Source: Chrysophaeum taylorii
Lineage: Eukaryota; Sar; Pelagophyceae; Pelagomonadales; Pelagomonadaceae
DNA: 64,000 bases
Direction: 5' to 3'
Assembly (NCBI GenBank): GCA_029834535.1
Contig: JAQMWT010000096.1
Coordinates: forward strand, 62,001 to 126,000
In this document: in pieces, positions 2 through 42,535 of the stretch
How positions within the stretch are numbered: the stretch's first letter is position 1
How the letters are laid out: every line of letters starts with the position of its first letter
Program-made: the position numbers and the translations under genes
The notes under the pieces: generated by a model
What the model saw: the letters and a program-made list of their open reading frames with translations, nothing else
Databases searched by the model: none
Told to the model about the DNA's origin: nothing

Positions 2-1135
2 CACCAAATTCTCCGCTTCAAGTACCCCCCAAGCTTGCTTGACTCCCGCGCCCCAACACACATCAAGGGCTTTGCACGTCTTGCTAACTGTCTGCGCAAT
101 CACAACGACTCGCTGTTACTCGACGAAGACGAGGAAGCCATCCACCACCTTCCTAAGCTCATCGCTCACATCACCGTCATTTCAACGTTTGAGCGCAACT
201 TTTGGGCTCACCTCAAGCCTCACCCCACTCTCAACTTCAGGCCTTTGCGCTTCGTTAAGGACTTTGGTCGTCTGCCAACAAAGTACAAAGACAACCCCAG
301 CTTTCGCTCCCGCCGTCATGGTCTCCACCTCACCGAAGACGATGATGACACCTCTCCCTCTGAAGACGACACCCCACCGGACCCCGTTGAAGACACCGAC
401 CCCGTCGCTGTTTTTCTCACGGAGGCCAATCTTGATCAAGAGGAAGACAATGACCTTATTCACCAACTACACGCATACCGCAAGAAGCAAATTTCGCGGC
501 ACGTCAAAAGGCCCCCTCCAGGCAAAAAGCCTCCTAATCCTCGCTCCCTGTCTTACTACGACGTCAATGACAGTCCTAAGCCCAAGGCCACCCCTGTCAC
601 CCCACCGAAGAACAAGCACCGTCCCCGCGCTCCTCCTGTCACCCCTGACAAACGCGAGCACCCACATCTTCGCAAGGTCACCTTCCCCACACAACCTCAT
701 CCACCCAAACCATCCACTCCCGACCAACGCTTCAAGGTCCCCCTTCGTGAAGTCCGTCGCAAGCTCCAAACCATACGGAATCTTAGCCAAGCCGGTCGCC
801 AACATACGTCCAGCTCCGAGCGTATGAACAAGCTAATCAACCTCATCACCACCATTTCCGATGAGATACTTCTTTCCGAAGCCGAAAACGACGCCGCCGA
901 ATTCCTCCAGATGTTAACGTCCGATCCCCAAGACGATCAACCTGATGAGGGCGAAGCCGAAACCGATGAACAAGACGACAACGGACATCTCGGTTTCTAC
1001 GACGACAACGGTCAGATAAACCTCTACGACGATACCGTTCCCGAAACCACTGATGAAGATGACTCCGCCGAAGACTACGCCAAACGTCACAGTGACTACA
1101 TGCGTGCTCTCCACCAGAGTCGGCTTTTTCGCTGA
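2..1135 (+). CDS. Gag-like ORF of the Copia element (5' partial)
   Basis: The frame is open from the first bases of the window, so the true start is upstream. The visible ~377 residues have a short helical N-terminal part, then a long hydrophilic region rich in Pro, Lys and His (roughly residues 165-255), then a strongly acidic C-terminal tail. I see no CCHC zinc knuckle, the usual retroviral-type nucleocapsid mark. The gag assignment therefore rests on position directly upstream of the protease and on composition. The stop codon (1133-1135) shares one base with the ATG of pol (TGATG), and pol is in a different frame. Translation of pol could use stop-restart coupling or ribosomal frameshifting. 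Confidence 0.6.
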   Translation, partial: HQILRFKYPPSLLDSRAPTHIKGFARLANCLRNHNDSLLLDEDEEAIHHLPKLIAHITVISTFERNFWAHLKPHPTLNFRPLRFVKDFGRLPTKYKDNPSFRSRRHGLHLTEDDDDTSPSEDDTPPDPVEDTDPVAVFLTEANLDQEEDNDLIHQLHAYRKKQISRHVKRPPPGKKPPNPRSLSYYDVNDSPKPKATPVTPPKNKHRPRAPPVTPDKREHPHLRKVTFPTQPHPPKPSTPDQRFKVPLREVRRKLQTIRNLSQAGRQHTSSSERMNKLINLITTISDEILLSEAENDAAEFLQMLTSDPQDDQPDEGEAETDEQDDNGHLGFYDDNGQINLYDDTVPETTDEDDSAEDYAKRHSDYMRALHQSRLFR

Positions 1136-4100
1136 TGGTTGCCGACGACGCCTGTGCCGCCAACCACACCTTACTTCATCAGGCACCAAACCTCCAGATG
1201 ACGAATTTCCCGACCTCATCAACTATTTCCACAAGAGTCGCAGATTTTCTTTGTGCAGCTTACACCCCAGAAAAGACCTCAAAGAAGACTAGCTCACTGC
1301 ACGGATGCAATGGCCCCGGCACCGAAACCTCATTGATTGACGGTGGCGCATCTTTTTGCTTTACGCGCACAATTCAAAATTTTGTTCCCGAGACCATACG
1401 CCGAATTCCCGAACACACCATTCATATGGGACGAGGCACCCTCACCAGCCACTTCATCGGTGTTAAACCGTTGTATCTGCAGGCTGCAGGTCTCTCTTCA
1501 AAGGATACAAAAGACAAAACCGGTTACGCTTTATATCTCGTATTTATGGTCGTCCCGCAATTCAGGCAAGGTCTTCAAGTTATCGCAACATCTCAGCTCA
1601 AAGCTCTGCATGTACAAGCAACAGACCCGCCACTGCCCCACGAGCCCTACCTTTATGAGCTTCTAAAGTCCTCAACCTCAGACCCCCACAATTATGCAAC
1701 ACTTCTAGGAAAGACCGCCGTCGTACTTGCCACTCGCAAGCCTAACGGCCTGTTGTCCCTGCCATCCCACCCAAAGCAAACATTCGCCACTGTGGTCAGC
1801 TTTCACACAAGAAAACGAATGTCACTCAAGGATGAGATTGCACACATCACACAGCATGTCGCAAAGACACGCTCACAATCGCACACGCTTGACTTCGCGA
1901 AGTTACAAAATCATTCACTGTATCTCAACGAACTGCTCAACCTCCAATCTCCTGTCGTCCACTACGCCTTCAATGGCTCAGCAGACCTCTCTGCGCAGTC
2001 GCAAACCCCTCTGCTCAAAACAGCCATTATTGCAGGTGGACTCCACCAGGAAGGTTTCGACACTTTTCGCAAACGATTCGACAAACGCCTTACTGTCGTG
2101 GTCACCTGCGAAATCAACGATATCCTGCGCACCCGTGCGCAACAACTCTTTCCGCACGCCCAGCACTATGCGGACCTCAGAAAACTCAATGCCGCACTCC
2201 AAACCGGCAAAATACGACTCCCTACATTCGACCTGGCAGTTTTTACATTGCCCTGCCAACATCTGAGTGTAATGCAAGAATACGACGGCTATGCCACTCC
2301 GGTCACCGCCGACCTTTTCGTCAAAGAACAAATCCGCTTCGTTCGTTGCACGCTCCCGACCTATGCCATTGTCGAGAACGTACCTCCCAACCCCCGAACT
2401 CACCACGAGTATGCTCAACTCGCTAAAGGTTATCAGCGCTTAGGCTACTTCCGCCACTCCGGCGTCTACAATGCCTCTGCCTTTGGTGACGTCATCAGCA
2501 AGACACGCTATCTCGCTGTGTATGCCCGGCACCCGCTCACCGGCTACAACCTCGAGAAAACCGCCTCTCCTTGGTTAACCTCGCCTCCGAGCATGGTTCC
2601 TCTTCTGGACCCCAGTCACACCATCCCTGACGATCTATGGATCGCCAAACCCGCCCTTCACGGTACCGTGCCCCGCTCCACATTGGACTACTACCAGCAC
2701 AAGGCTACCTACTCCTACAAGCCCGCCAACGCCTCGAAACTCTCGATTTCCGAGAATGCCCGCATCTGCCAAATGCTCGCACGTCTCACCAAGCCCTTCA
2801 CGGATCTCGGTCTAGATGCCGACGGCACCCCCTACGCCACAATGGCGTCCATTTCCCACCTCCTGGTTTTCACGCTCCTGCACAACCATTTGTCGCAACA
2901 CCCCACTCTCGCCGCTTGGAACACCATCCGCTGTTTTCATGCCTCAGAGTCTCAATGTGCTTACCATTTGGATGGAGCCATCACCGGCACCGCCGCTACT
3001 GCCGTCGCATGTGGATACTTCTCGCGCGCCTCCCTCACACAACATTCCAGGCCCCCTCAGATTTTGGACTGTTCCCATCAACCCGCAGTCTTCTCCCCAA
3101 CGCACTCCTTTTCCCTGGATGTTCCCAAGGGCACCGCCTTTCTGGTCGTCGCTTACACCACCTCCTTGGCCGCCGCTCACAGCTGTTCGCGCCCGTCCAC
3201 TTGGGTCCACTATATGAATCGTTCGCATCCTGGCTTTGCCGCGATCGACTCACAAGGGCGAATTGCTCTCGATGACCCCAAGGGACTCCTAATGTCCAAA
3301 GCACGTCCCACTTACGCGGACTATGTCGGCCACATCGGAGACACGCTTCAGAAGAGCACCAAGTGCTACTCGGTCACTGGCTCGTACCCCACCAACACGA
3401 GCTACTCCAATGCCTTGCTGCTGATCTCTCCAGACCACATTCGCTACGCGACCCTCAACGAAATCGCAAAATTTGGACACCACTCGGACCCGGAACTGCT
3501 CCGACTATTCAAACAGCACCCGCCGTACTTCGCGTTCAAGGCACTGGCCAACGCCGTCCCGCACCACATGTTGCAGGCAAAGTACAGCGCTGTCCTCGCA
3601 TTCCACGAATCGCACCACCACGTGAACCTTCACGTCGAATGGGCCACAATACGCCATGGCATCCCCAGCCCCGGAGACATCAACCAGGTTGCAGAATTCT
3701 TCTCGGCCATCTCCAGCCGTCTCTTAGCAGAGGAAGACCTGAACCTCACCTCCCTCTTCAATGCCGTTGCAGATGCTCACCATGATGCGATCCGCAAACC
3801 AAGCAAATCGACAAGCCTCGAGACGCTTCTTGCCGAGGCAACCGTTGCTAAAATCCGAGTCGACAAGCGACCCAGCCCCCCCAGCGCTTCGACTGCCGCT
3901 CTGCCTCCCTTGCACCAGCCCGGCACCACTCAGCACGCCAAAAGAGTGCTTTTGGTCACTCGCTGGCACCGCATACACCACCAGCAACCAGAGATTCTTC
4001 GCCGCACGATTGCCGCTAATGTAACGAATCTCCGCCCAGGTGATGATCGGTATCTGCAAGACTGCAGTGAATGCAAGCGCTGCCAATCGCATGTAAGCTT

Positions 4101-6954
4101 CAGTCACAAAAACAATTCCTGGTCACAGGATGAACTGGCCTATGCTCCTGGCCAACACCTCCACATGGATGTGTCATACCCGAGCATCCGCAAGTGCTAC
4201 GGCGGATTTCGCTATATCATGCACTTCGTGTGTATTATCTCAGCACACAAATGGGTCTATTTCCTACGGAAATTAGACGCACAGGATGTTCTGGCCGGCA
4301 TCCTCTATGTGGTCAATGTGATTAAAGTCGAATTCGATGTCCATGTGAAGATCATATCCTCTGACGCATTCTCAACTTTTCGCTCTGAAGCCTTCCACCC
4401 TCTCAAGGTGCAGCTTGGTCTCCAATTCCAAATCCTTGGTCGCCACCTCCACCAGCGGAACTTTGCTGAAAACATTATCAAGGAAAACACCCGAGGCACC
4501 GTAGTTCGTCTCCTCAACCTTCGCAGTGTACGCATCGAAGGAAAGTCTATTGCCGCTGAGTATTATCACCCATTTGCTCTCCTGCATAAGATCCAAGCCG
4601 ACAACCAGCGCTCTCATGGACTGCCCTCGCGCACACACATGCCATGCACCGTTCCCCGGCGTATCATGTCACCCATGGCACCGCTCTTGAAGCTTCTCCC
4701 CTTTGGCGAACCTGTCACTTTTGTCTACCCTCAAAGTCACAAGCTGGAACCCTCCAGCGTCTCCGCCTCTTACTTTCATAGTAACAACTATCTCCCGAAC
4801 CTCCCCGGAACGGACCGATTTATCCGAGATGTTCACAGCTCTATCTTGCTTGTACATCAAGGGCGATATGGAAAAATCGTCACCTCAAACGACTTTCATG
4901 TCGACGCAGACATGCCAGTCAACCGTAACAAGGAGATCGAACGGATCAAAGCACTCGCACAGATCCCAACAAAGGCACGACAAGAGGACCCGCTACCAGC
5001 TATAAGCGAACAGCAAATGCCGGAAGTTAGACAGGAATCAAAAAATGAGGGCGAGACTCACGAAGACGAGCACGATGATAAACCTAGCGATGACGACGAA
5101 CACAAAGAACCGGATCCAACTCCCGCTGCTGATTCAAGTCCCGTCAGCGACGCGACACCTGAACAGGATTTTTCGTTCCTCAACCGGCCACCTCCGCCGG
5201 ATGGTAGCATTCCGATGCCCAAACGAAAAGATCGCCTAGAGGTTGTTCTCGACGATTCAGGTTTTACTCCAGTTCTCGTGCATCGCAACCAGAGCGATAA
5301 GCTCAAAGCAGATCTCAATGACGAACGTGGATTCCGCATCCCTAAGGATCAACTCTACATCGTGAAACGTGTTGACGATGGAAAACTCTTCACCAGACGC
5401 ATTATCGCCTCAGAGTATGGTCGCAACTGGAAATACCAGCAGGAGCAATCCACGGCTCACGCCACAGCCAACATGTCCAGCACATTGATGTTCCTCATCA
5501 GTGTCAGCGCTCTGCACCAGGGCCACGCCGCCAGCATCGCCTCTGCTCTCAACATTCGAAGAGATGCTAAGCCGCCTAATGATGTCCCGAAAGGATGTCT
5601 CCTAGCAAGTACCACACAAGACTATGGTATCATGGGCGGCACCGCACTGGATTTGCAGAGAGAAACCGACGCGGAACTCTTGTACGTTGACTTCCCCAGG
5701 AAGCCATACCACTCATCTGTGTTGGTTGACCACCTTGATAACGACAATTCTGTTCTCGAGAACTACGTGTGCCATGACGAAATGTCACCGGCAGAGTACT
5801 ATGCGCGTCAATGGAATCAAGAATTCTGTTGTATGGGTTCCTCTCTTTTGTGGGACATCTCCGCGCATCAACACTACCATCTAGCTTCTCGTCACAGGCA
5901 TGCCTTCATGCATGATTCTGGCGAACTCGGACACCTCTTCCTAAGTCAAAGTGATCCGAATCAAGATATTCTACAAGAAGTCATGGACTATGATTTGCAG
6001 CACATCGATCACGTCGTGTTACAGCTTGTGACCGCTGAAGATATTGTCTATGAGCCTGAAAAGATTGTCGAACTCAAAGGACTCAGCGAAGAAGATAAGT
6101 TAAAGCATATCGCTTCGATTCGCAAGGAAATTGAGGGATTGTGCTCCAATGGTGTCTTCAAGCTTGAGCCTTTACCTCCAGACCGTTCGTCTATCTCGAC
6201 GAAGCTCGTGCTGAAGATCAAGTATTTTGCTGACGGCACTCCAGACCGCTATAAAGCTCGTCTAGTCGCCCGAGGTTTCTTGGCACGTGTAGGCATTGAC
6301 TTTTATGCCACATCCTCCCCAACCGCAATGCTCGCTACCAACCGGCTACTGCTCGCCATCGCTGTGAAGCACAAGCTCCCGGTCGCGCACGCGGACATTC
6401 CTCAGGCATTCATCCAATCGGCACTCGATCGCCCAGTATGGATCGACTTTCCTCGAGGAATACGTGTCTCGCCAAATCTTATCCAGCAGATACAGAAGAA
6501 CCATCCAGAGTCGAAGCTCGCTCTCCGACTCGTCAAGGCTCTCTATGGCCTCAAACAGCCAGCTTTGTTGTGGAACATGAAGCTCGACTCATTTCTTCGA
6601 CAACATGAGTTCGAACGCTCACAAGTCGATACTTGCCTCTATATCAATTGGGATCGACCTATCAACAAATGGGTACTACTATCCGTTTCAGTCGATGGCC
6701 TATTGATCACTGGTACCAACACTGCCAAAATTGCGTCTCTTCGCACCGCTCTGGAGACCGAATATGGCAAGGGTACATGGCATGACAACATCAGATCCTT
6801 TCTTGGCATCGATGTCCACTACATTGTCTCCGCTAGTCATCTCACTATGAATGTAGCAGCGAAGATCAACAAGATGCTTGCTGAGCATAAGCTCAACCTA
6901 CATAGCCTAGACGTCCCCTATTCGGACATCCTCTCCCAAAAACCTTCTACTTAA
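1135..6954 (+). CDS. Pol polyprotein: protease, C5-cytosine methyltransferase, integrase, reverse transcriptase (ends at a premature stop)
   Basis: 1,939 residues. The protease motif is DGGAS at residue 69, a variant of Copia DSGAS. Residues ~295-812 form a C5 DNA methyltransferase (separate entry). The integrase zinc-binding region is near residues 945-985 (H...H...CSECKRC). The catalytic triad is D1012, D1077, E1112, and 34 residues between the last two is normal for a DDE integrase. An acidic linker covers ~1290-1370. Reverse transcriptase begins near residue 1660, with YKARLVARGF at 1706 and motif A aspartate D1754 in HADIPQAF. The catalytic box, normally YVDD, reads SVDG at 1852-1855, so the second aspartate is lost. 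Translation stops just before the RNase H connection, where a Copia polyprotein should continue. Without read-through this copy makes no RNase H, and the altered box should abolish polymerisation. Confidence 0.92.
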   Translation: MVADDACAANHTLLHQAPNLQMTNFPTSSTISTRVADFLCAAYTPEKTSKKTSSLHGCNGPGTETSLIDGGASFCFTRTIQNFVPETIRRIPEHTIHMGRGTLTSHFIGVKPLYLQAAGLSSKDTKDKTGYALYLVFMVVPQFRQGLQVIATSQLKALHVQATDPPLPHEPYLYELLKSSTSDPHNYATLLGKTAVVLATRKPNGLLSLPSHPKQTFATVVSFHTRKRMSLKDEIAHITQHVAKTRSQSHTLDFAKLQNHSLYLNELLNLQSPVVHYAFNGSADLSAQSQTPLLKTAIIAGGLHQEGFDTFRKRFDKRLTVVVTCEINDILRTRAQQLFPHAQHYADLRKLNAALQTGKIRLPTFDLAVFTLPCQHLSVMQEYDGYATPVTADLFVKEQIRFVRCTLPTYAIVENVPPNPRTHHEYAQLAKGYQRLGYFRHSGVYNASAFGDVISKTRYLAVYARHPLTGYNLEKTASPWLTSPPSMVPLLDPSHTIPDDLWIAKPALHGTVPRSTLDYYQHKATYSYKPANASKLSISENARICQMLARLTKPFTDLGLDADGTPYATMASISHLLVFTLLHNHLSQHPTLAAWNTIRCFHASESQCAYHLDGAITGTAATAVACGYFSRASLTQHSRPPQILDCSHQPAVFSPTHSFSLDVPKGTAFLVVAYTTSLAAAHSCSRPSTWVHYMNRSHPGFAAIDSQGRIALDDPKGLLMSKARPTYADYVGHIGDTLQKSTKCYSVTGSYPTNTSYSNALLLISPDHIRYATLNEIAKFGHHSDPELLRLFKQHPPYFAFKALANAVPHHMLQAKYSAVLAFHESHHHVNLHVEWATIRHGIPSPGDINQVAEFFSAISSRLLAEEDLNLTSLFNAVADAHHDAIRKPSKSTSLETLLAEATVAKIRVDKRPSPPSASTAALPPLHQPGTTQHAKRVLLVTRWHRIHHQQPEILRRTIAANVTNLRPGDDRYLQDCSECKRCQSHVSFSHKNNSWSQDELAYAPGQHLHMDVSYPSIRKCYGGFRYIMHFVCIISAHKWVYFLRKLDAQDVLAGILYVVNVIKVEFDVHVKIISSDAFSTFRSEAFHPLKVQLGLQFQILGRHLHQRNFAENIIKENTRGTVVRLLNLRSVRIEGKSIAAEYYHPFALLHKIQADNQRSHGLPSRTHMPCTVPRRIMSPMAPLLKLLPFGEPVTFVYPQSHKLEPSSVSASYFHSNNYLPNLPGTDRFIRDVHSSILLVHQGRYGKIVTSNDFHVDADMPVNRNKEIERIKALAQIPTKARQEDPLPAISEQQMPEVRQESKNEGETHEDEHDDKPSDDDEHKEPDPTPAADSSPVSDATPEQDFSFLNRPPPPDGSIPMPKRKDRLEVVLDDSGFTPVLVHRNQSDKLKADLNDERGFRIPKDQLYIVKRVDDGKLFTRRIIASEYGRNWKYQQEQSTAHATANMSSTLMFLISVSALHQGHAASIASALNIRRDAKPPNDVPKGCLLASTTQDYGIMGGTALDLQRETDAELLYVDFPRKPYHSSVLVDHLDNDNSVLENYVCHDEMSPAEYYARQWNQEFCCMGSSLLWDISAHQHYHLASRHRHAFMHDSGELGHLFLSQSDPNQDILQEVMDYDLQHIDHVVLQLVTAEDIVYEPEKIVELKGLSEEDKLKHIASIRKEIEGLCSNGVFKLEPLPPDRSSISTKLVLKIKYFADGTPDRYKARLVARGFLARVGIDFYATSSPTAMLATNRLLLAIAVKHKLPVAHADIPQAFIQSALDRPVWIDFPRGIRVSPNLIQQIQKNHPESKLALRLVKALYGLKQPALLWNMKLDSFLRQHEFERSQVDTCLYINWDRPINKWVLLSVSVDGLLITGTNTAKIASLRTALETEYGKGTWHDNIRSFLGIDVHYIVSASHLTMNVAAKINKMLAEHKLNLHSLDVPYSDILSQKPST
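2002..3600 (+). other. C5-cytosine DNA methyltransferase domain inside Copia pol
   Basis: Conserved C5-MTase blocks appear in the canonical order. Motif I-like glycine loop is AIIAGGLHQEGF (residues 297-308). Motif II acidic strand end is VVTCEIN (322-328), followed by the usual AxxLFPxAxxxxDLR-type run. Motif IV is LPCQHLS with catalytic Cys374. Motif VI is ENV (414-416). Motif VIII-like is SKTRY with Arg458. The FGHHSDPELLRLF stretch resembles motif IX, and ALANAVPHHML (803-813) is motif X, matching the family GNAVP signature. The ~330 residues between VIII and IX occupy the target-recognition position and are unusually long. All catalytic residues look present, so unlike the reverse transcriptase this domain may be functional. 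The likely role is methylating the element's own DNA or host DNA after integration; that role is inference. Confidence 0.85.
2905..3190 (+). other. Possible 2-oxoglutarate/Fe(II) dioxygenase-like segment within the methyltransferase
   Basis: Within the long insert between methyltransferase motifs VIII and IX, residues ~590-680 read like a double-stranded beta-helix dioxygenase. There is an H-x-D pair (H611, D613 in YHLDG), a GYFSRASL strand like the F-x-G-G-x-L strand of this fold, a distal histidine H657 in SPTHSF, and PKGTAFLVVAYT, where the family often has a G-x-R-hydrophobic run ending in YT. The expected 2-oxoglutarate-binding arginine appears as Lys665. Similar HxD...H stretches are, as I recall, seen in dinoflagellate Copia polyproteins. 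The assignment is pattern-based and uncertain. The segment could simply be a diverged DNA-recognition region. Confidence 0.35.
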
Positions 6955-7845
6955 CTTCTCTCAGACTTGGCTACTACCTTAGACGTATTACGCCAAAACT
7001 CCCCTTTCTATTGTGGCACCAGCATTTATTTGTCTGTCACATGTCGGCCGGACATCACCACCTTGTGCAACAAATGCTGCAAAGGGATGCACAACCCCGA
7101 CCAAACACACCTTCTCTACTTATATGTTTTTCCTCGCTACTTAAAGGGCACTCTGAATGACTCCCTTGACTATTCATCCGACAGCCCGTCTATTACCCCC
7201 TTTATTCAGCATCTGATCGCCCGCTATCCTGAACTGCATCACCTTCGTTCACCTATTATCTGTTTTACTGATGCAAGCTTTGCTGACCGTTCTGACCCTC
7301 GCTTACGATCCAATTCTGGTGTATGTATATTCGTCTTTGGCAATCTCGTATTTTGGTCTAGCAAACGACAGACGCTTACTGCCAAGAGCACCATGGACGC
7401 TGAACTCATCGCCGCCAGCGCAGCCGCTGATGATTGTCACTGGTTCCACAAACTCTTCTCCTCTCACCCTTATTTGTTTTCATCTGATCAAGCTCACGAT
7501 ATTCCCCTGCTTATTGATAACGCTAGCGCATTACATGTCGCTAATCACCCTAAAGTCAGTGCTCCCTCTCGTAATATCAACTTACGAGAATTTCGCATTC
7601 GTGACTACCAAGCCAACTCGGTCATTCGTCCTCTCTGGTGTCCTACTCACTACCAGGTCGCTGATCATTTTTCGAAGCTCCTTCCACGCAACTTGTTTCA
7701 CAAGTTCAAAAACGCCTACGGCGTTCACTCCACTTCATCCTCCCCACCATCACATCAAGTTGCTCTTTCGGCTACTCTTCCACCATACGACTCTGTCCAG
7801 AACACTCTTTACATTCTTGTCGTTGGTAAGACGCTCCCTGCTTAG
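6955..7845 (+). pseudogene. RNase H domain of Copia pol, cut off by the stop at 6952-6954
   Basis: The reading frame after the TAA is the same as that of pol and stays open for ~296 codons. The connection segment around YCGTSIYLSVTCRPDI matches the Copia region where YRxxVGSLxYLxxTRPDI is usual. RNase H acidic residues are intact: Asp in CFTDAS (codon 7270), Glu in MDAELIAAS (7402) and Asp in LIDNASAL (7516). The C-terminal VADHFSKLLPR matches the Copia end motif (AD-x-x-TKxL). One nonsense change therefore separates two intact parts. Whether the first ATG after the stop is ever used is unknown. Confidence 0.85.
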
Positions 7846-7992
7846 TTTGATCCAGATTTCGGTCACCGCATTCAATCTGTGAGGGCGTAGAGATAGAAAA
7901 TCCGAACTAGGGTTAGTACCCCCCATTCTAGGGTTAGTTCACTTAACTTTGCTACCTTTCGATTTAAGAAAACGCTGTGTTATTCACACCAG

Positions 7993-8025
7993 CTGTCCTC
8001 GACTAAGAGACAGAGTCGAGGACAG
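7993..8025. other. Perfect 12-bp inverted repeat (stem-loop) in the presumed 3' LTR
   Basis: Arms CTGTCCTCGACT (7993-8004) and AGTCGAGGACAG (8014-8025) are exact complements around a 9-base loop. The hairpin lies ~150 bp after the RNase H stop, where an LTR is expected. It could be an RNA stem in the R region or a transcription-end signal. No function can be shown from one LTR copy. Confidence 0.55.
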
Positions 8026-8060
8026 ACTACCACTGTTCTCACGCTCTGCTGAAGGGTAAC

Positions 8061-8929
8061 ACAGTTGTGATTACTGTTCTCTACTCACCCCGCTCTGCTC
8101 TCGCCTCTCTCACCTCGCCCCAATCTGCCGCTCTGCCCTTCCACGACCTCCCTGCCCTTGACCTAAAACCTAAACGTAATTAAAAAACTCTCTCGCTCAC
8201 CCCGCTCTGCTCTCACCCCGCTCCGATCGAGTTCTTCCATCAGTCTTCCGTGGCCGCCCTGCCATGACCCTCTCGAGAGACTTTCGACGCACTTCCATCC
8301 GCGCCGCAGCGAGACTTGTGGCAGTCGATTGCTTTTTCGGATCCCTCGCCGGCACATATCACAGCCCTCTAAATCGAAGCTGGCAATGAAGCCGCTCAGG
8401 TGACTCGGCATGCCGGGCACGTGCGGCGCGTGCGACACGAAGAAACCCTTGTCTTCGCGCTCGTGAACCGTCGGCGCGACTCACGGCGACGCGCAGCAAC
8501 GTCTATCGTTGGCTGAGCTCGTGAAACATCTCTCTTTGAAGGAGAATGGTTCGAGATTGTGTTTCTTGGTCACAACAACCCAGCGCCCTCAGGCTTGATA
8601 GTCGCCACAATGACACAAACTCTCGTATGTGAAGTACTCGGGTGGTTCCTGCCGGAAGGCCGACTGGGCAGGATGATTTCACGTGCTGCTGTCGTGGGCA
8701 TCAGATCTTCCGCGCCGGCGTTCTTCCGCAAGCGTCTGAGAGGAAAGGGGCGGTCGCGCGAAGGCCCCCACGACTGAGGCTCCATGTGTCGCCCACGCCA
8801 CTGACGCCACGTTCGTTTGAGAAAGCGAAGAAAATGCCGAATATACGTGAAAACAAAAAGTGTCGATGGTGGATCGACGGTTGTCAGGGTTGGTGGCGCG
8901 CACAACGCTCCATCATACGAGAACGATGG
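8061..8929. other. Gene-free stretch with pyrimidine-rich short repeats
   Basis: No convincing coding region. The 9-mer CCCGCTCTG occurs at 8089-8097 and 8201-8209, with near copies in between, inside C/T-rich text resembling Copia LTR or leader sequence. Its complement recurs at 28.8-29.0 kb. The open frames around 8570-8940 on both strands show no recognisable domain. Confidence 0.4.
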
Positions 8930-9480
8930 GAAAAGCACACAGCTTGCGCTCTATATCTTTTTGTCTGCCTAGTAATGTGGAAATCTAAGCTTCAGCCTAT
9001 CACTGTTACATCCGCTCATGAGAGTGAGTTGATTGCGCTCAATATGTGCGCCGACGACGTGGTTTGGGTACGTACGCTCCTGACTGAGATTGCTTTTGCC
9101 GTCAATCTATCTGCAACAACAACCCGAAGGCAAAGACCGCCTTATACTGGACTATGACATCCACGACAGCCCATTGCCGTCGGAAATGTCATTCATCCGG
9201 AATAGGCCTATATTGGTGACTCAGCCTCAGCTACCCACCTTTCAAACGACCCGGACAGTGCTACTAAGGCGAGCACGCGCTGGTTCAAAAACCGAGACTA
9301 TATTCGGCTCAAACGCATCCCGCTACACCATATATCCGGCAACACTTGTATTGCCGATGGCTTTACGAAGCCTCTTGGTGCTCCCCCCTTTTCTTCGTTT
9401 CGGACTCTACTTGGTCTACAACAACCCATATCGCTGCAAGATACTTAACCTGCTGTGTCCGCAACGAGCCTCGAGATGGC
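8930..9480 (+). pseudogene. Remnant of a second Copia element: RNase H and pol C-terminus
   Basis: One frame reads VMWKSKLQPITVTSAHESELIAL and then VWVRTLLTEI, the hallmark Copia RNase H sequence (W-x-S-K-x-Q with S-x-x-E-x-E-x-x-AL). After frame breaks it continues with STRWFKNRDYIRLKR and ADGFTKPLGAPPF, matching the terminal Copia HID-x-R-x-H and ADxxTKPL motifs. At least two frameshifts are needed to follow the protein. The sequence differs from the 1-8 kb element (which has FSKLLP here), so it belongs to a different Copia lineage. Only the 3' few hundred bases survive. Confidence 0.75.
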
Positions 9481-35553: not shown

Positions 35554-38500
35554 ATGTCTAAACTAGACACGCGTCACAACCACCCTGGCCTTCTACGTCT
35601 ACCAGTGTACGAACGAAAATGCCATTGGGTCGCACTTGGTACTCTCTTCTACTTTGGTGTCTACGAATCTTATTTGGCCAAGGACTCTCATCTCGTGGAG
35701 CTGCAGTTTTTCACCTACTCCAGGCGCATCATCACTAGGCCAGCTCGCCGTCCTGTAATCCCTTCAAAAAAATCCGCGGCCACATCTGACACGGGCGCCA
35801 CGTTCTGCCACAATTCGTCTCAGCACGTCATAGCAGGACACACGTAGAAGTCCCCAAACCGGCGAAGTTTACATAGGGCTCAACTCGACCAATCAACGCG
35901 CGTTGCCCTGACTCTCGTAGTCGTTGCTTTCGCTCGCAGACCGAACGAACGAACGCAGGGCTCGTCTATCTCACTCCAGTCTCCTCATGGACAAGTTTCC
36001 TGATGACCTGTTTTTGCTGTCGTCAACCACCGGCCGGCCATTGTGTTCAACATATTGATGCTCCACGTCCAAACGCTCCTTATGGAGGAACCCATTGCAC
36101 GTCAAAACATAACGCTCTTCCACTTTATCAACGGTTCGAAGTCACTTGCGCGGTCTTTACGTGCAACAAGTCATCCATGGCCTAATCCAAGTGCCGTTTA
36201 AGTCGGTCATCAGAGTTCCAATACGTGACCATTGATCACAGATGAGATATCTTTCTTCTCTCGTGATCTCGCTCGAATCCATGGCGTAGACTCGAAACAT
36301 TTTCGGAAGTCATACCTTTCTGGCTTTCCATCTTCCTTCCTGATAGTACAGGACTTTTGTACTGCTCGATGTCGTCGGCCGGAAACATCATCAGCAATCT
36401 TTCAATCTGGTACATGGCAATCATATGTGCCGGCATCTCCACCGAAGGTTCAGCGCTCTACGAAAACACTAACGGCCACGTTCACGGCAATTTTTTGCGT
36501 GGTGCAAGTGCGTGAGAACCAGAAGCTTTTGCTCACGCTGTCTCGAGAGCAATCTGCTTGCGACATCATCACAAAATCCCGCAAAGGCAGGCTAGCTCAA
36601 TGTTATAGCTGATGTCATCATTGATGTCGTCCGAAACGAATGCACCACGGAGACCGCGCTTAATGATCTCATCGACTATCCAGGCGCTCAATGTGCCTGG
36701 ATAATTCGATCCGATTAGCGTTTCCGGATCACCAAAGCCCTGCAATCCTGACACATCCTTGGAAAGCTTCACCCCATCTTCTCCGGAAAACCGTCAGCAC
36801 CATCAAGAGGTCATCACCATTTTCCAACGTTTCGGTTTCTATTCTGCCGCAACAAGTTGTGATGCAGCCTCAATCCCTGAGATTCTACATGAAAGATACG
36901 GTGGTTCGCCATACACAGCATATCTACACTGCCTTTCCGCGACATACCTCCTTTGTTTGGCATTTCGTTTTCGATAACGCCCATGCAGTTATTCTTCATG
37001 GCTGACGACCCTGTGTCTCCACAGCTTGTTGTTCCCTGCCCAGGCCCCCCCTTGCACGACGCCATTTACCGCGAATGTCGACTTTTCTCCGAGCGGGCGC
37101 GATTTCTTTGACGCTCAGTGAGCCCATCGGGACTACTCACCTGGCTATGTGGTCCCTCCACACCCAGTCATATTATTGCTCAATTCGTTTATCGGCTGCA
37201 AAGTCGCTCGTTAGTCGCTGATGACAGGGGTCGGAAAATTGCTTCGCGCTGAAATCAGTGCAATATCATTGATGCTTTGCGTCGTGACAACTCTAACAAC
37301 ATGCTCGGATGAGCCCCCGATCTGTGTTCTCAGACTGATATCACGAAATCGTCGTGTCGACGCTCTCACGCTGCACTTAAGGCATGATCACTACTATGAG
37401 AGGCATTTTTCGGCGATGGTATTCATTCCGGACTTTTTATTGTCCACTCGCTACACGAGAGACTCTGCGTGGCTTCTTCGGAATACGCCAGCCTCAAACC
37501 TCAAGCCGTCATGTCCCTCGGATTCTTTTGAGCAGGTCGACTGACACTTATTCCACCTAATGCATCAACAAGTCGACACACCTAAGGCACCAAAGGCAAG
37601 ACAACATTGCTATATGGTCATCATGCCCAGATGTCATGAAACACCAAAAAAAAATGATCACTCCACTGGCCTGGAATCCGTACCGTCCAGAGACCTCAAA
37701 CCTCTCACTTGACGTGAGAGTGCGCGTCGCTCAACTCATAAAAAATGCACAGAAAGGTGACTTATTCACGCGCAACCATGCGACTAAGTCGGTCACTTTT
37801 AGGCCGTAACGACCCGCGTAGTACCTTATACTCCCAAGTGAAGATGTCCTGAGCACATCGTGATGGTCTTTGGGTGCACTCACGCTGCAAATTCGTACAG
37901 GTTGTCTTAACCTACTTTCCCAATGGACTTTTGCGAAAGTTAACATCGGATGCCTAGTACTCGGGCGCAAAGTACTTGGTACTGATGCGCATGATTAAAG
38001 ATGGACGCTATCGATACATTACCCCGGACAACGCCGCGTGACTCTGTGCGGTCGATGAAGTTTCTCTATAAAACCGCTGGCGGCGGCGCTTGGGTCCTCT
38101 CAGACATTCAAAGAGGAATCCTCCATAGTCGCTCCTCGCCAGCTACTAGCACTTCACCTCACATGTAATCACGCATATGCTAAACGCCTAGTGTCATGTG
38201 ATCTTACTGGCCACATCGTATGACTAGTCTGAATTGAAAGCCATCTGTGATTTTGAAAATCGGTGAACGCTCTTCGACGTTGCACGGGACTGTGCTGACC
38301 AAATCCTCATTGCTCTCTAAGATCCTGTGAGTCATACAGCTATCGGAACAATCTCAAGTTCTTCAACAAACACCGCCCAAGTGGAAGTCCGACTTCAAGA
38401 ATAAGACGATTCGCTTCGCTATCGATGCGGCGTAGTCCAACGATACCGGCAGCATTCCGAAATCTGAATGGCCGCCGGAGCTGCCTCCATCACTGTCTTC

Positions 38501-41500
38501 CCGGCTATACTATTCGAGACTCGCCTGTAACGCTCATGCTCCATACACTAGCCTGATACCGTGGAACGCAATAGCAACATCAGAACAAACCCAAGCCTTG
38601 TGGTCTCCAGCCGGTGACTCACGATATTTGAGATATTTGGTTCCAGATGAAAGGACGTCCAAAATAAGTGGATAGCCTATCATGGTCTGACAGCATTCAG
38701 ACCTACAACCCCAACGAGCTCAATTTTGATGATGTTTGGTCTGGTCTTAGCCGTGGATGTGGCAGAGCCTAAGTTTTCTTCGGGTATGGTCAGAATCAAT
38801 GCCTGCGCGTGCTTCTGTGCGTCAAATGCGACTTTAGTTTGGTTTACCCGGCGCAACGCCTTGACGCAAAGACTGCTCTCGCTGCTACACTGTAACCAGC
38901 ATATTCGGTATGTCGGTCGTGTAAGAGTAATGCTTACCAATGCTGCCACTTAATTACGAGCCCACGAAGTGAAAAATTGAAAGTGGAATTATCACTGTGG
39001 ATTGAAACTCTTGGTCGCTAAAACCCACCACTGCACTTTGGCAATCCAAGCGAGCACTTCATTGGACGCCTCACCAAGTTTGTCATTATGCGAAAGAATG
39101 TTTTTGTGGTATACTTGTGGAAGATGATCAAGTCTACCCTTCGACGAACAGAGCCAGTCTGTTTCACGACAATCGTCACAATTCCAGCGCTCCCACCTCA
39201 TCTCCCGCGGGCACCACGTCGAGAGCACGCCCCACACAATTTCGTCGCGCCAGCAGGAGCTGAATACACGTCTATATATTTTGGTTATATGGGCTCGCGT
39301 GAACTCTGCACGGTAACCGCACCGGAACAAGCTTGAACCCAAGACTATACGAGGTCGGTAGTTTCGTAGTGCGGACATACTGCCACTCTCAGCACACGAC
39401 ATCGCGAATCGCCGCGAGTCGCTCATATTACTCGTTGGCACTGGTCACGTCATCAAAAGTGGTGTGTTCCAAATGGAGGATCACCGTGTAGACTGGCGTG
39501 GCGCTGGACTCAAAAACTCACAAATCAGGTAACTTGCACCAATAAACTCATAGGAGACCCGCAATTCATCCCAAACACATCCTTTGCCTACTGACGACTC
39601 TTCGTCACGCGCCGAACCGAGTACATTGGCCACACCTTGACTCACCATGAGCCGATGTCTGAGACTCTGTGGCTTTCGAACAGCTCCAGATAACATCGCT
39701 AGCGATGATGACGATTACGATGAGCGCATCCCCCGACTCCGATCCGTCACGTCCGCACCCGTCGTCGTCGTCGCTATAGGCCACTACCGACAATCCAACC
39801 CAGGACATAGCCGCGTCATCTCCCGCTTCTCCCGACTCCCTAGATTCTGATGACGAAAACGACGACCCCAAGGTCCCACCGAAATCCAATGGCAACGCTG
39901 CACGGTGTGTCATCGTGTTTCACATGCACTTGACGTCATCTAGGTGCGCTGGACTGGCACAGATGGCACAGATATTTGGTCAGACGTTATCATCACGCCA
40001 AATCAATGCTACAAGGTCGCAGTCGAACACGACAATGCAAAGTCGGATCCCGCCCGAGGAAACTCGTGTCGATCTCACATATCTAACGTGGACAAGATTT
40101 CCCAAACGCCTGTCAGTTAGCCTCCACGATGATACCTGGCTGTAGTACAAAGGCAATGCACCATCACGCACCCGCAAAAGGACAAAACTTAGCACTTCTC
40201 TCCACACAGTCAGCTATGGACAGTATTGCCACCACCCACCCCGAATGAGGCATCCATCAACACCGCCTATGAATCTCTGCTATCTTAGTACATTCGACTT
40301 GAGGGGTGCATTTTTCTCCCACGTCACGAAGACTCGACAACGAAGGTGCCTAACGCAATGCCTCACGCAACGGTCCTGATTGTGACCAGCAATTTAAACA
40401 CTCAGAAGGCCAAGCCTAAGCATACGCTGCTTTTCAAGCGCAAGAGTACGCTAACTAAAACTAACTTCAGACCTATCCCGAGCATGGGAGCCAGGCCGGA
40501 CCGGCAGGAGCCGGTACGGAATCACAGTGGAAAATCACGCAGTTGGGGCAGAGGCGAGGGACGAGGACGGACTTGTTGATGGTGGACCCCCACTGCGCGC
40601 GTTATTGTGCGAGGTCGTGCAAAAGCGTCGCAGGCCACGGACGTGTTGGTCCACGAACTTTCAAGCGCAAGAGTACGCAACGGCCGCAAATACCAGCAAG
40701 CTCTCACGTTGGCTTGGAGGAACAGCCTAAGACCTGCGGAACTGCATTCATAACCAATTCTTGAAACTGCATCTCACCTTCGCAGATGGTACTGATATGA
40801 TGGAACAACTGGTTGCGCTCTAGCCGAGTGGAAGGGCAGCTATAAACAGTAGACTCGTTGTCATAGCAGCCAGGAGCTGGCCCGGGCATTAAGACCTGGA
40901 ATATCCCCCTTACCAACTTCTAGAAGTGCATTGTAGCTCAGCTGATGAGAGACGGAGACACCTCGAAGGTATCATCCGCGAATTCGACAGTATCATAGAC
41001 AGAGGAGTCATATTACTTACTCGCCATTCTCAAGCAAGGCGAGTCTGCCCTTCCTACTCGCTTGGTTAGGACTTCGAGTGAAAACCGAAAATGGCGCCTC
41101 ACCTGAAGCACAAACTTAGAACATTGTCTAGGCCTTCTTAGCCGGTGTTGGATTGGGCTTCTACATTTCCTATAGTCCAAAAACTATAGTAGCAACTCGC
41201 AGCAGACTCCTGAGAGTCACTACACACCCAATCAATTACCAGTGCGTCACGCTGATGTACCTCAAGCCTTAATTGAAATCCTATATGGGTCAACCTAATT
41301 TAGCCAAACCTACTAGCATCGAATAACTCGGGTACGGCGATTCCAAGGGCAAAATGGCCCTCAGTCTCAATACAACCCGGTATGGACTTCAATTCCCCTT
41401 AGTTGTTCCTAAAAGTTCTTCTACAACCTAGACTTTGCATGCAGCTGGAATATGCAACCCCATGTATGCAACACACCCCGACACTTAAAAGCGGCGTGCT

Positions 41501-42535
41501 GTCTCTGCGTTTGTCAACGACCTCGTAATCACAGACACAAAAGTCATACAGGAGGTCAAAGACACACTCAGCGGAGAGTTCGGCAATAGAGTGAAATGGG
41601 CTGAATACGTTGAGTCGCCTCTTGATCTCAATTGTAAATGTGCGCTGGCCCGTGGTGTTTTACCTTATCAACTGGAGACAATATCAAAGAACTGCTCACA
41701 AAGTTCAATCTTGGTCAACCGCGTGCCTTTCTCCGAGGAAGAATGTGATCTCGTCACGCATATATCTCTAAGTCGTCGACCTGCAAGTTCAAATCAAAGG
41801 TGCTTTTGTATGAGGCCCACCTAATTACTGAGAATCACAGTCCCCCTGGACATCATGGCAAATTTTAAATTGTGTTCAGAAGGGCATGCATGGGCCACAG
41901 CGCCTGGTTGGAAGCCGCATCACGCTATCTATACACGAACGCCGAATATGGTCTCGTTTACCGATGTGGTGGCAAGCTACTATCCTCTAAAATTGTGAGT
42001 GTTATTATATGTTTTAAGTATCCCAAGCTCAAGACCCTGCTATTACGTCTCCTATTACCCTTAACTGATCCCTACTTCGCTCATTTGTCCAATAAGATAC
42101 TCAGATCCACATCCGAGTACTGCGATTTGCATTTGCGGATCCATCATCTCCTAGTCGTAAAACGACTAACAATCGAAGTCTACTCTCCAGGCAAAGCGAA
42201 TTGCTGCTACATCTACAGCCGATGAGGCTGCTATAATAGAGACGGTGAGTAAACCGAAGGGGTTAAGGAAGGTGTGAGTGGACGTATGGCTCTTCAGCCC
42301 GACACAGTCTGCACCATACATTTTCAACTACCAGTCATGTGATGACGTAATTCCAGTACCGCTGCTGGTCGACAACGAGGGTGCTTTGTCGACTGCAAGC
42401 CGTCCTAAGACAGCCCGTTAGAGAAAACACATCGACATGCATTTGAATCCGCGATTACCAAAATGTTCACACCCATCGCATTCGTTGCAATTTGTTCCCA
42501 ACCAAGCTCAACGATGTGTTTTTTTCTCGAGGCCT
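35554..42535 (+). pseudogene. Highly eroded Copia retrotransposon, related to the 1-8 kb element
   Basis: Landmarks in order on the plus strand, in changing frames. Protease-like SDTGATFCHNSSQHV is at ~35785-35830. RT start-like LEGIIREFDSIIDRGVIL is at ~40961-41015, matching the IASIRKEIEGLCSNGVFKL position of the first element. RT motif A remnant LPVRHADVPQALIEI is at ~41238-41282 (first element: LPVAHADIPQAFIQ). RT motif C remnant FVNDLVITDTKVIQEVKD is at ~41508-41560. RNase H QAKRIAATSTADEAAIIET is at ~42190-42245, and PLLVDNEGALSTA then KHIDMH at ~42360-42440. Stops and frameshifts are everywhere. I could not find the methyltransferase motifs in the 36-38.5 kb interval, either because it never had them or because they are too decayed. 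Confidence 0.7.

Follow-up and report, generated by a model that had tools for sequence, protein, structure and literature searches.

The window analysed here is the 64,000-nt stretch of contig JAQMWT010000096.1 from 62,001 to 126,000, and all coordinates refer to it unless a locus is named. At its left end lies one copy of an LTR retrotransposon, which we assign to family A and whose pol polyprotein contains a C5-cytosine methyltransferase (MTase) domain. The features of this copy are:

-1541 to -1334, left of the window: 5' LTR, 208 bp
2..1135, + strand: gag-like frame, extending leftward out of the window, with its stop overlapping the start of pol in TGATG
1135..6954, + strand: pol polyprotein, an open reading frame of 1939 aa
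1135..2001, + strand: protease region, with the aspartate motif IDGGAS recognised by eye near 1336-1353
2002..3600, + strand: C5-cytosine methyltransferase domain, from Pfam, NCBIfam, PHROG, profile and motif alignments
2248..2268, + strand: motif IV with catalytic Cys374, aligned with M.HhaI and phage enzymes and compared among loci
2371..2391, + strand: motif VI with Glu414, from the same alignment and comparison
2494..2520, + strand: motif VIII with Arg458, from the loci comparison and phage alignment
2560..3450, + strand: long region from motif VIII to motif IX, presumed from its position to be for target recognition
3451..3564, + strand: motif IX (3451-3474) and motif X (3541-3564), seen by eye and from their co-linearity with families C and F
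4141..4425, + strand: integrase core, a weak match (rve, E=0.006) with homology to the integrase of families B, C and F
6151..6894, + strand: Copia reverse transcriptase (RVT_2), its aspartate pair altered in this copy
6967..7845, + strand: RNase H part, downstream of the stop at 6952-6954 and in frame with pol; a family F reverse transcriptase-region query aligns over 6028-7683
7888..8083, + strand: 3' LTR, 196 bp, from LTR comparison
8084..8088, strand not applicable: 5-bp target-site duplication CTCAC, with the same 5 bp left of the 5' LTR

The element belongs to the Ty1/Copia superfamily. Its integrase (aa 1003-1097 of pol, the rve match being below its Pfam cut-off) precedes its reverse transcriptase (aa 1673-1920, RVT_2 E=1.5e-38), and the RVT_2 match is accompanied by LTRs with a target-site duplication; the two LTRs are identical at 185 of 196 aligned bases and have the ends TAGAGA...TCTCTA. 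The original prediction, made from the sequence of the window, was of a Copia polyprotein in which protease and integrase are separated by a C5-MTase whose Cys and Glu are where they should be, and this is confirmed by the Pfam matches to PF00145 (E=1.1e-7) and RVT_2; the uninterrupted frame that it described over 2002-3600 is part of one open from 1135 to 6954. Pfam gives no match for the gag-like frame or the protease region and no convincing match for the RNase H part. The protease motif IDGGAS is co-linear with DTGAT of family B, one of three related families taken up below.

The TGATG overlap between gag stop and pol start (1133-1137) is kept in 25 of 30 loci and looks like a stop-restart arrangement. 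The window copy itself is old and broken, as seen in the left part of its gag, scattered across three frames, in the stop at 6952-6954 and in the altered reverse transcriptase box. This broken polymerase box had been picked out from the start, and indeed all 12 of the other reverse transcriptase copies read have the usual aspartate pair. Just past the 3' LTR, 8909-9412 holds a fragment of an RNase H region of family F/C type, with 44% identity to family F. A second Copia element, of family B type and decayed, occupies 36587-41662, with an MTase piece at 36587-37036 and integrase and reverse transcriptase pieces at 38361-41662.

The PF00145 match of the window copy scores 32.1 bits against a cut-off of 22 and spans only aa 336-462 (motifs II-VIII), and the residues of motifs IV and VI align to the catalytic sites, as the original prediction implied. 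The domain also matches NCBIfam TIGR00675 (E=2.4e-8; 34 bits, below the cut-off of 100.65) and two PHROG MTase families (8.1e-9 and 9.2e-8). A profile (A1) of 16 of the 30 family A loci, picked as stop-free and near full length, matches the set of seven phage C5-MTases plus the host DNMT2-like protein at 95.7% probability (E=9e-9). Among solved structures, the single sequence found no match at E up to 1, and the 16-copy profile found seven weak ones (0.056 to 0.17), six of them M.HhaI, with the PCQ and ENV of family A aligned to the PCQ and ENV of that enzyme.

The motifs lie at aa 297-308 (I), 324-329 (II), 372-378 (IV), 413-419 (VI), 454-462 (VIII), 773-780 (IX) and 803-810 (X), the last two lying outside the Pfam match and having been identified visually and from the alignment, co-linear throughout, with C and F. 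Motif I of family A (AIIAGGLHQEGF) is the least regular, off the usual glycine pattern; families C and F have LLCSG(M/L)S. Among the 30 genomic loci, Cys374, Glu414 and Asn415 are each kept in 29 of 29 readable ones, Arg458 in 29/30 and Asn806 in 27/30, so the predicted catalytic cysteine stands, aligned as it is with M.HhaI and the phage enzymes. The broader claim that all key residues are intact is right for motifs IV and VI in family A, but not for the divergent motif I, nor for family B, which is changed in motifs IV and X. M.HhaI and the phage enzymes (L063, L066-L071) have motifs IV, VI and VIII in the same order with Cys and Glu aligned; they differ in that about a quarter of core residues are identical, and in being stand-alone enzymes with a regular motif I.

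The stretch of about 300 residues that separates motif VIII from motif IX aligns co-linearly among families A, C and F (window 2560-3450, L058 and L064), and in the window this long region fits no Pfam family. A pattern recalling 2-oxoglutarate oxygenases was considered there and dropped, the HxD-like residues of family A being absent in C and F. Searches for relatives of the domain in other collections returned little. In the protein collection, neither the polyprotein region nor the domain nor the profile of 16 rows found a relative among proteins of like length (candidates were limited by length and shared words); viral contigs gave none for A1, A3 or the integrase-reverse transcriptase part, and a plasmid search found nothing. 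The phage search gave one virus in two records, at 24.7% identity and E=1e-3.

The host is most likely the marine pelagophyte alga Chrysophaeum taylorii, which agrees with the stramenopile host supposed in the original prediction. Within its genome (70.8 Mb in 697 contigs) the further copies for which the original prediction had proposed a search are abundant. We found at least 91 matches to the MTase domain, a lower bound on copy number since 81 were scored of 773 first-look candidates; 17 of the 30 matches covering at least 520 of 533 residues have no stop. For variants in family A we used 30 of the at least 91 matches, skipping codons with fewer than 15 loci and leaving variants in 2-3 copies unclassed, and scaled the ratios of non-synonymous to synonymous changes by the neutral expectation. 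For variants shared by at least four copies the ratio is 0.18 (64/141) in the MTase, 0.20 (71/144) on the protease side and 0.13 (52/149) on the integrase side. For singletons, presumably acquired mostly after insertion, it is 0.70, 0.94 and 1.31, respectively. In 13 copies of the reverse transcriptase, variants shared by at least three give 0.09 (8/34) and single ones 0.31 (74/94), with variants present in two copies unclassed. For one pair of copies in family C, dN is 0.046 and dS 0.894 over 590 codons, a ratio of 0.052; in this pair the catalytic core is the most constrained part (0.028), and the value for the recognition region is 0.072. In active lineages the MTase therefore seems to be under constraint about as strict as that on the other enzymes, and the proposal that the MTase is under selection is borne out by the shared variants of family A and the ratio of family C. 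A chance open frame is ruled out, as the motif residues are kept across 30 loci and the shared variants are mostly synonymous.

The same genome contains three further Copia families, B, C and F, which are 33-40% identical to family A in the reverse transcriptase and carry a related MTase domain co-linearly at the same place; their better-preserved copies retain the Cys and the Glu. The reverse transcriptase search gave relatives at 42-44% identity. One of these, L041 of family B, has the related MTase at the same place, at 24% identity and 1e-20 over a stretch that takes in part of the protease region. L064 (F), L065 (C) and L084 (F) were likewise chosen, by reverse transcriptase alone, and have the domain or part of it (L065 matches from motif VIII on only, and the front of L084 is broken). 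Thus all four regions chosen by reverse transcriptase carry at least part of the domain, a small sample of the at least 150 matches (the best 150 of 1670 candidates). L058 (family C) was selected on the strength of its MTase match, and so provides no independent test of how prevalent the domain is in Copia.

At motif IV, family A has PCQ and family B ECT, while families C and F share PCT. At motif VI the sequences are ENVPP (A), EEMTPP (B) and EMTPP (C and F). The Arg of motif VIII is retained across families. Motif X is NAVP in family A, NAIP in family C and NALP in family F, whereas family B has a changed version (the family F residues are those of one copy, read in two frames). In family B the Cys is kept in 11 of 13 readable places, the losses being in the decayed L045 and L054, and the Glu in 8 of 11, the remaining three being broken there. 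Over the MTase core L058 1268-1900, at least 12 family C rows, query included, are 100% identical in amino acids among the best 150 of 915 candidates, which indicates recent activity of family C.

Pairwise identities of reverse transcriptase, integrase and MTase rank in the same order: 40/31/25% for A-B and 50/50/45-53% for C-F, with 33-36% and 21-25% for reverse transcriptase and integrase between these two pairs. The MTase of B and C is 23% identical over the core, and the A-C and A-F MTases match (22-23%) only in stretches that start ahead of motif IX and end in the integrase. The core of A has no direct blastp match to that of C at 1e-3, direct profile matches are weak (C to phage enzymes, E 0.011; A to C, E 0.24, in the motif IX-X part) and PF00145 scores family C alone at 11.2 bits, below its cut-off of 22. 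The homology of C and F to A accordingly rests on family B as a bridge, on the shared position and on the 22-23% stretches. In a tree of the core, with long-branch warnings, ten retrotransposon rows fall on one side (98/99) and seven phage and two host enzymes on the other.

The host enzymes are a DNMT2-like (L033) and a DNMT5-like (L034) protein, labels that we assigned from motifs; the DNMT5-like gene (L034 1024-3537) has an open frame of 2086 aa. Both came from the eight of 57 PF00145 genome matches that were inspected, the other six being retroelement copies. The retrotransposon domain groups with neither host protein (98/99), a weak test given the long branches of the host rows. Bacterial contamination is ruled out as the source of the domain, which sits inside an LTR-flanked Copia pol with a target-site duplication; the genome around it also gives 84 light-harvesting family matches.

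Judged from these comparisons, the acquisition of the MTase is old, rather than a recent event in one copy: it predates families A, B, C and F, since a related domain occupies the same place in elements with reverse transcriptase identities of 33-40%. The recent origin offered in the original prediction as an alternative to selection must consequently be given up. The way in which the copies have changed suggests that the MTase was long kept because it is useful to copies of the element. What we observe is the gene order, the catalytic residues, a high number of copies, purifying selection and, in four families, a related domain that is co-linear; the reading that we favour, at a probability of roughly 0.6, is that a C5-MTase gained in pol before the families split is an active m5C enzyme, released in the particle and acting on the element's own nucleic acid. 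The domain would be produced within the polyprotein as an active enzyme and probably freed by the element's protease within the virus-like particle. Its substrate there would be nucleic acid of the element itself, most likely freshly made cDNA that has yet to integrate or is integrating; the element could profit in that the cDNA is hidden or protected, or in that the state of the new insertion is set. For DIRS elements, de Mendoza et al. put forward such methylation of the element's own cDNA in the particle (PMC5890265). Against this reading we count the irregular motif I of family A, the changes of motifs IV and X in family B, the losses of Cys in two family B places, the weak direct profile matches of C to phage enzymes and of A to C, the lack of a C-to-T excess given below and the mean pLDDT of 30.3 given by AlphaFold on the single sequence.

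A possible objection is that an active m5C enzyme may have an RNA substrate, either the genomic RNA of the element or, in the particle, the tRNA primer; de Mendoza et al. raised RNA as a substrate for LINE-borne enzymes (PMC5890265). The DNA of old copies has no methylation scar: C-to-T singletons number 119/11666 in CG and 298/33387 in other contexts, without excess, nor do they exceed A:T-to-G:C changes, so these old copies hold no trace of lasting methylation in any context. We nevertheless regard an RNA substrate as unlikely, because family A has PCQ and ENV like the phage DNA enzymes and, on long branches, the tree does not group it with the host DNMT2-like protein. From CpG observed/expected ratios we draw no inference, since the elements differ in base composition too; they are 1.01 in the window copy, 1.04 on average in A loci, 0.80-0.92 in C/F loci, 1.07 in a B locus, 1.24-1.38 for the host in five window stretches and 1.02 in the stretch 36-44 kb, which contains another Copia.

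The irregular motif I of family A, and the ECT in motif IV and changed motif X of family B, would also fit a non-catalytic fold kept for nucleic-acid binding or polyprotein structure. This too seems improbable to us, as Cys and Glu are found in 29/29 readable A loci and in the C and F copies read, and constraint in family C is strongest on the catalytic core. That a functionless domain was recently captured by chance in one copy or subfamily is hardly credible: the lack of relatives in the protein collection (proteins of like length) and in viral contigs might speak for it, but against it stand the purifying selection and the presence of the related domain, in one and the same position, in four Copia families that have diverged. 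Recent capture by a single copy is ruled out by the four-family domain together with the selection ratios of families A and C.

Returning to an active enzyme acquired before the split, we also put forward, tentatively and with more doubt than belief, that the MTase is an ancestral, required pol domain of a whole Copia lineage in pelagophytes, and that de novo cytosine methylation of the genome could be mainly the work of retrotransposon enzymes. This bolder proposal would have the Cys-Glu pair kept through the split, in at least four families and hundreds of copies, and would go with the host's other C5-MTases seen so far being DNMT2-like or DNMT5-like.

Published retrotransposon carriers of a DNMT are LINE, DIRS and Gypsy elements, and Symbiodinium Copia elements are stated to lack one (de Mendoza et al. 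2018, PMC5890265). In the closest case, KnitGypsy-Dnmt3 of Klebsormidium nitens, an LTR retrotransposon likewise has a C5-MTase in Pol, with purifying selection and conserved key residues as in family A; it differs as a Gypsy rather than Copia element, of the green lineage (PMC5890265). The MTase of KnitGypsy-Dnmt3 is placed with Dnmt3. SymbioDIRS-Dnmt3 and SymbioLINE-Dnmt of Symbiodinium also combine a retrotransposon-borne C5-MTase with many copies and purifying selection, but are DIRS and LINE elements of dinoflagellate hosts; in SymbioDIRS-Dnmt3 the domain is within Pol, as here (PMC5890265). According to the same source, DIRS domains methylated CG in yeast, and results for the LINE and Gypsy domains were inconclusive (PMC5890265). 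One sentence in PMC12344493 lists LTR Copia among DNMT3 carriers, citing de Mendoza et al. for streptophytes and dinoflagellates. The diatom CoDi elements are, like family A, Copia elements of stramenopiles; passages describing them mention a chromodomain for CoDi-I and no MTase (PMC9998398, PMC3145265, PMC5348765). The open-licence literature, to which our search was confined, yielded no recognisable description of a Copia element with a cytosine MTase. The suggestion of an independent capture is sustained solely by the type of carrier, which is Copia here and LINE, DIRS or Gypsy in the published cases.

Hosts usually turn cytosine methylation against transposons, as a weapon. In this case a further retrotransposon superfamily, Copia, in a probable stramenopile, has held a C5-MTase across deep divergence, and retrotransposon-owned methylation would be a recurrent strategy rather than two oddities. 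With four diverged families and many near-identical copies, this genome offers a test bed for what use an MTase is to a retrotransposon.
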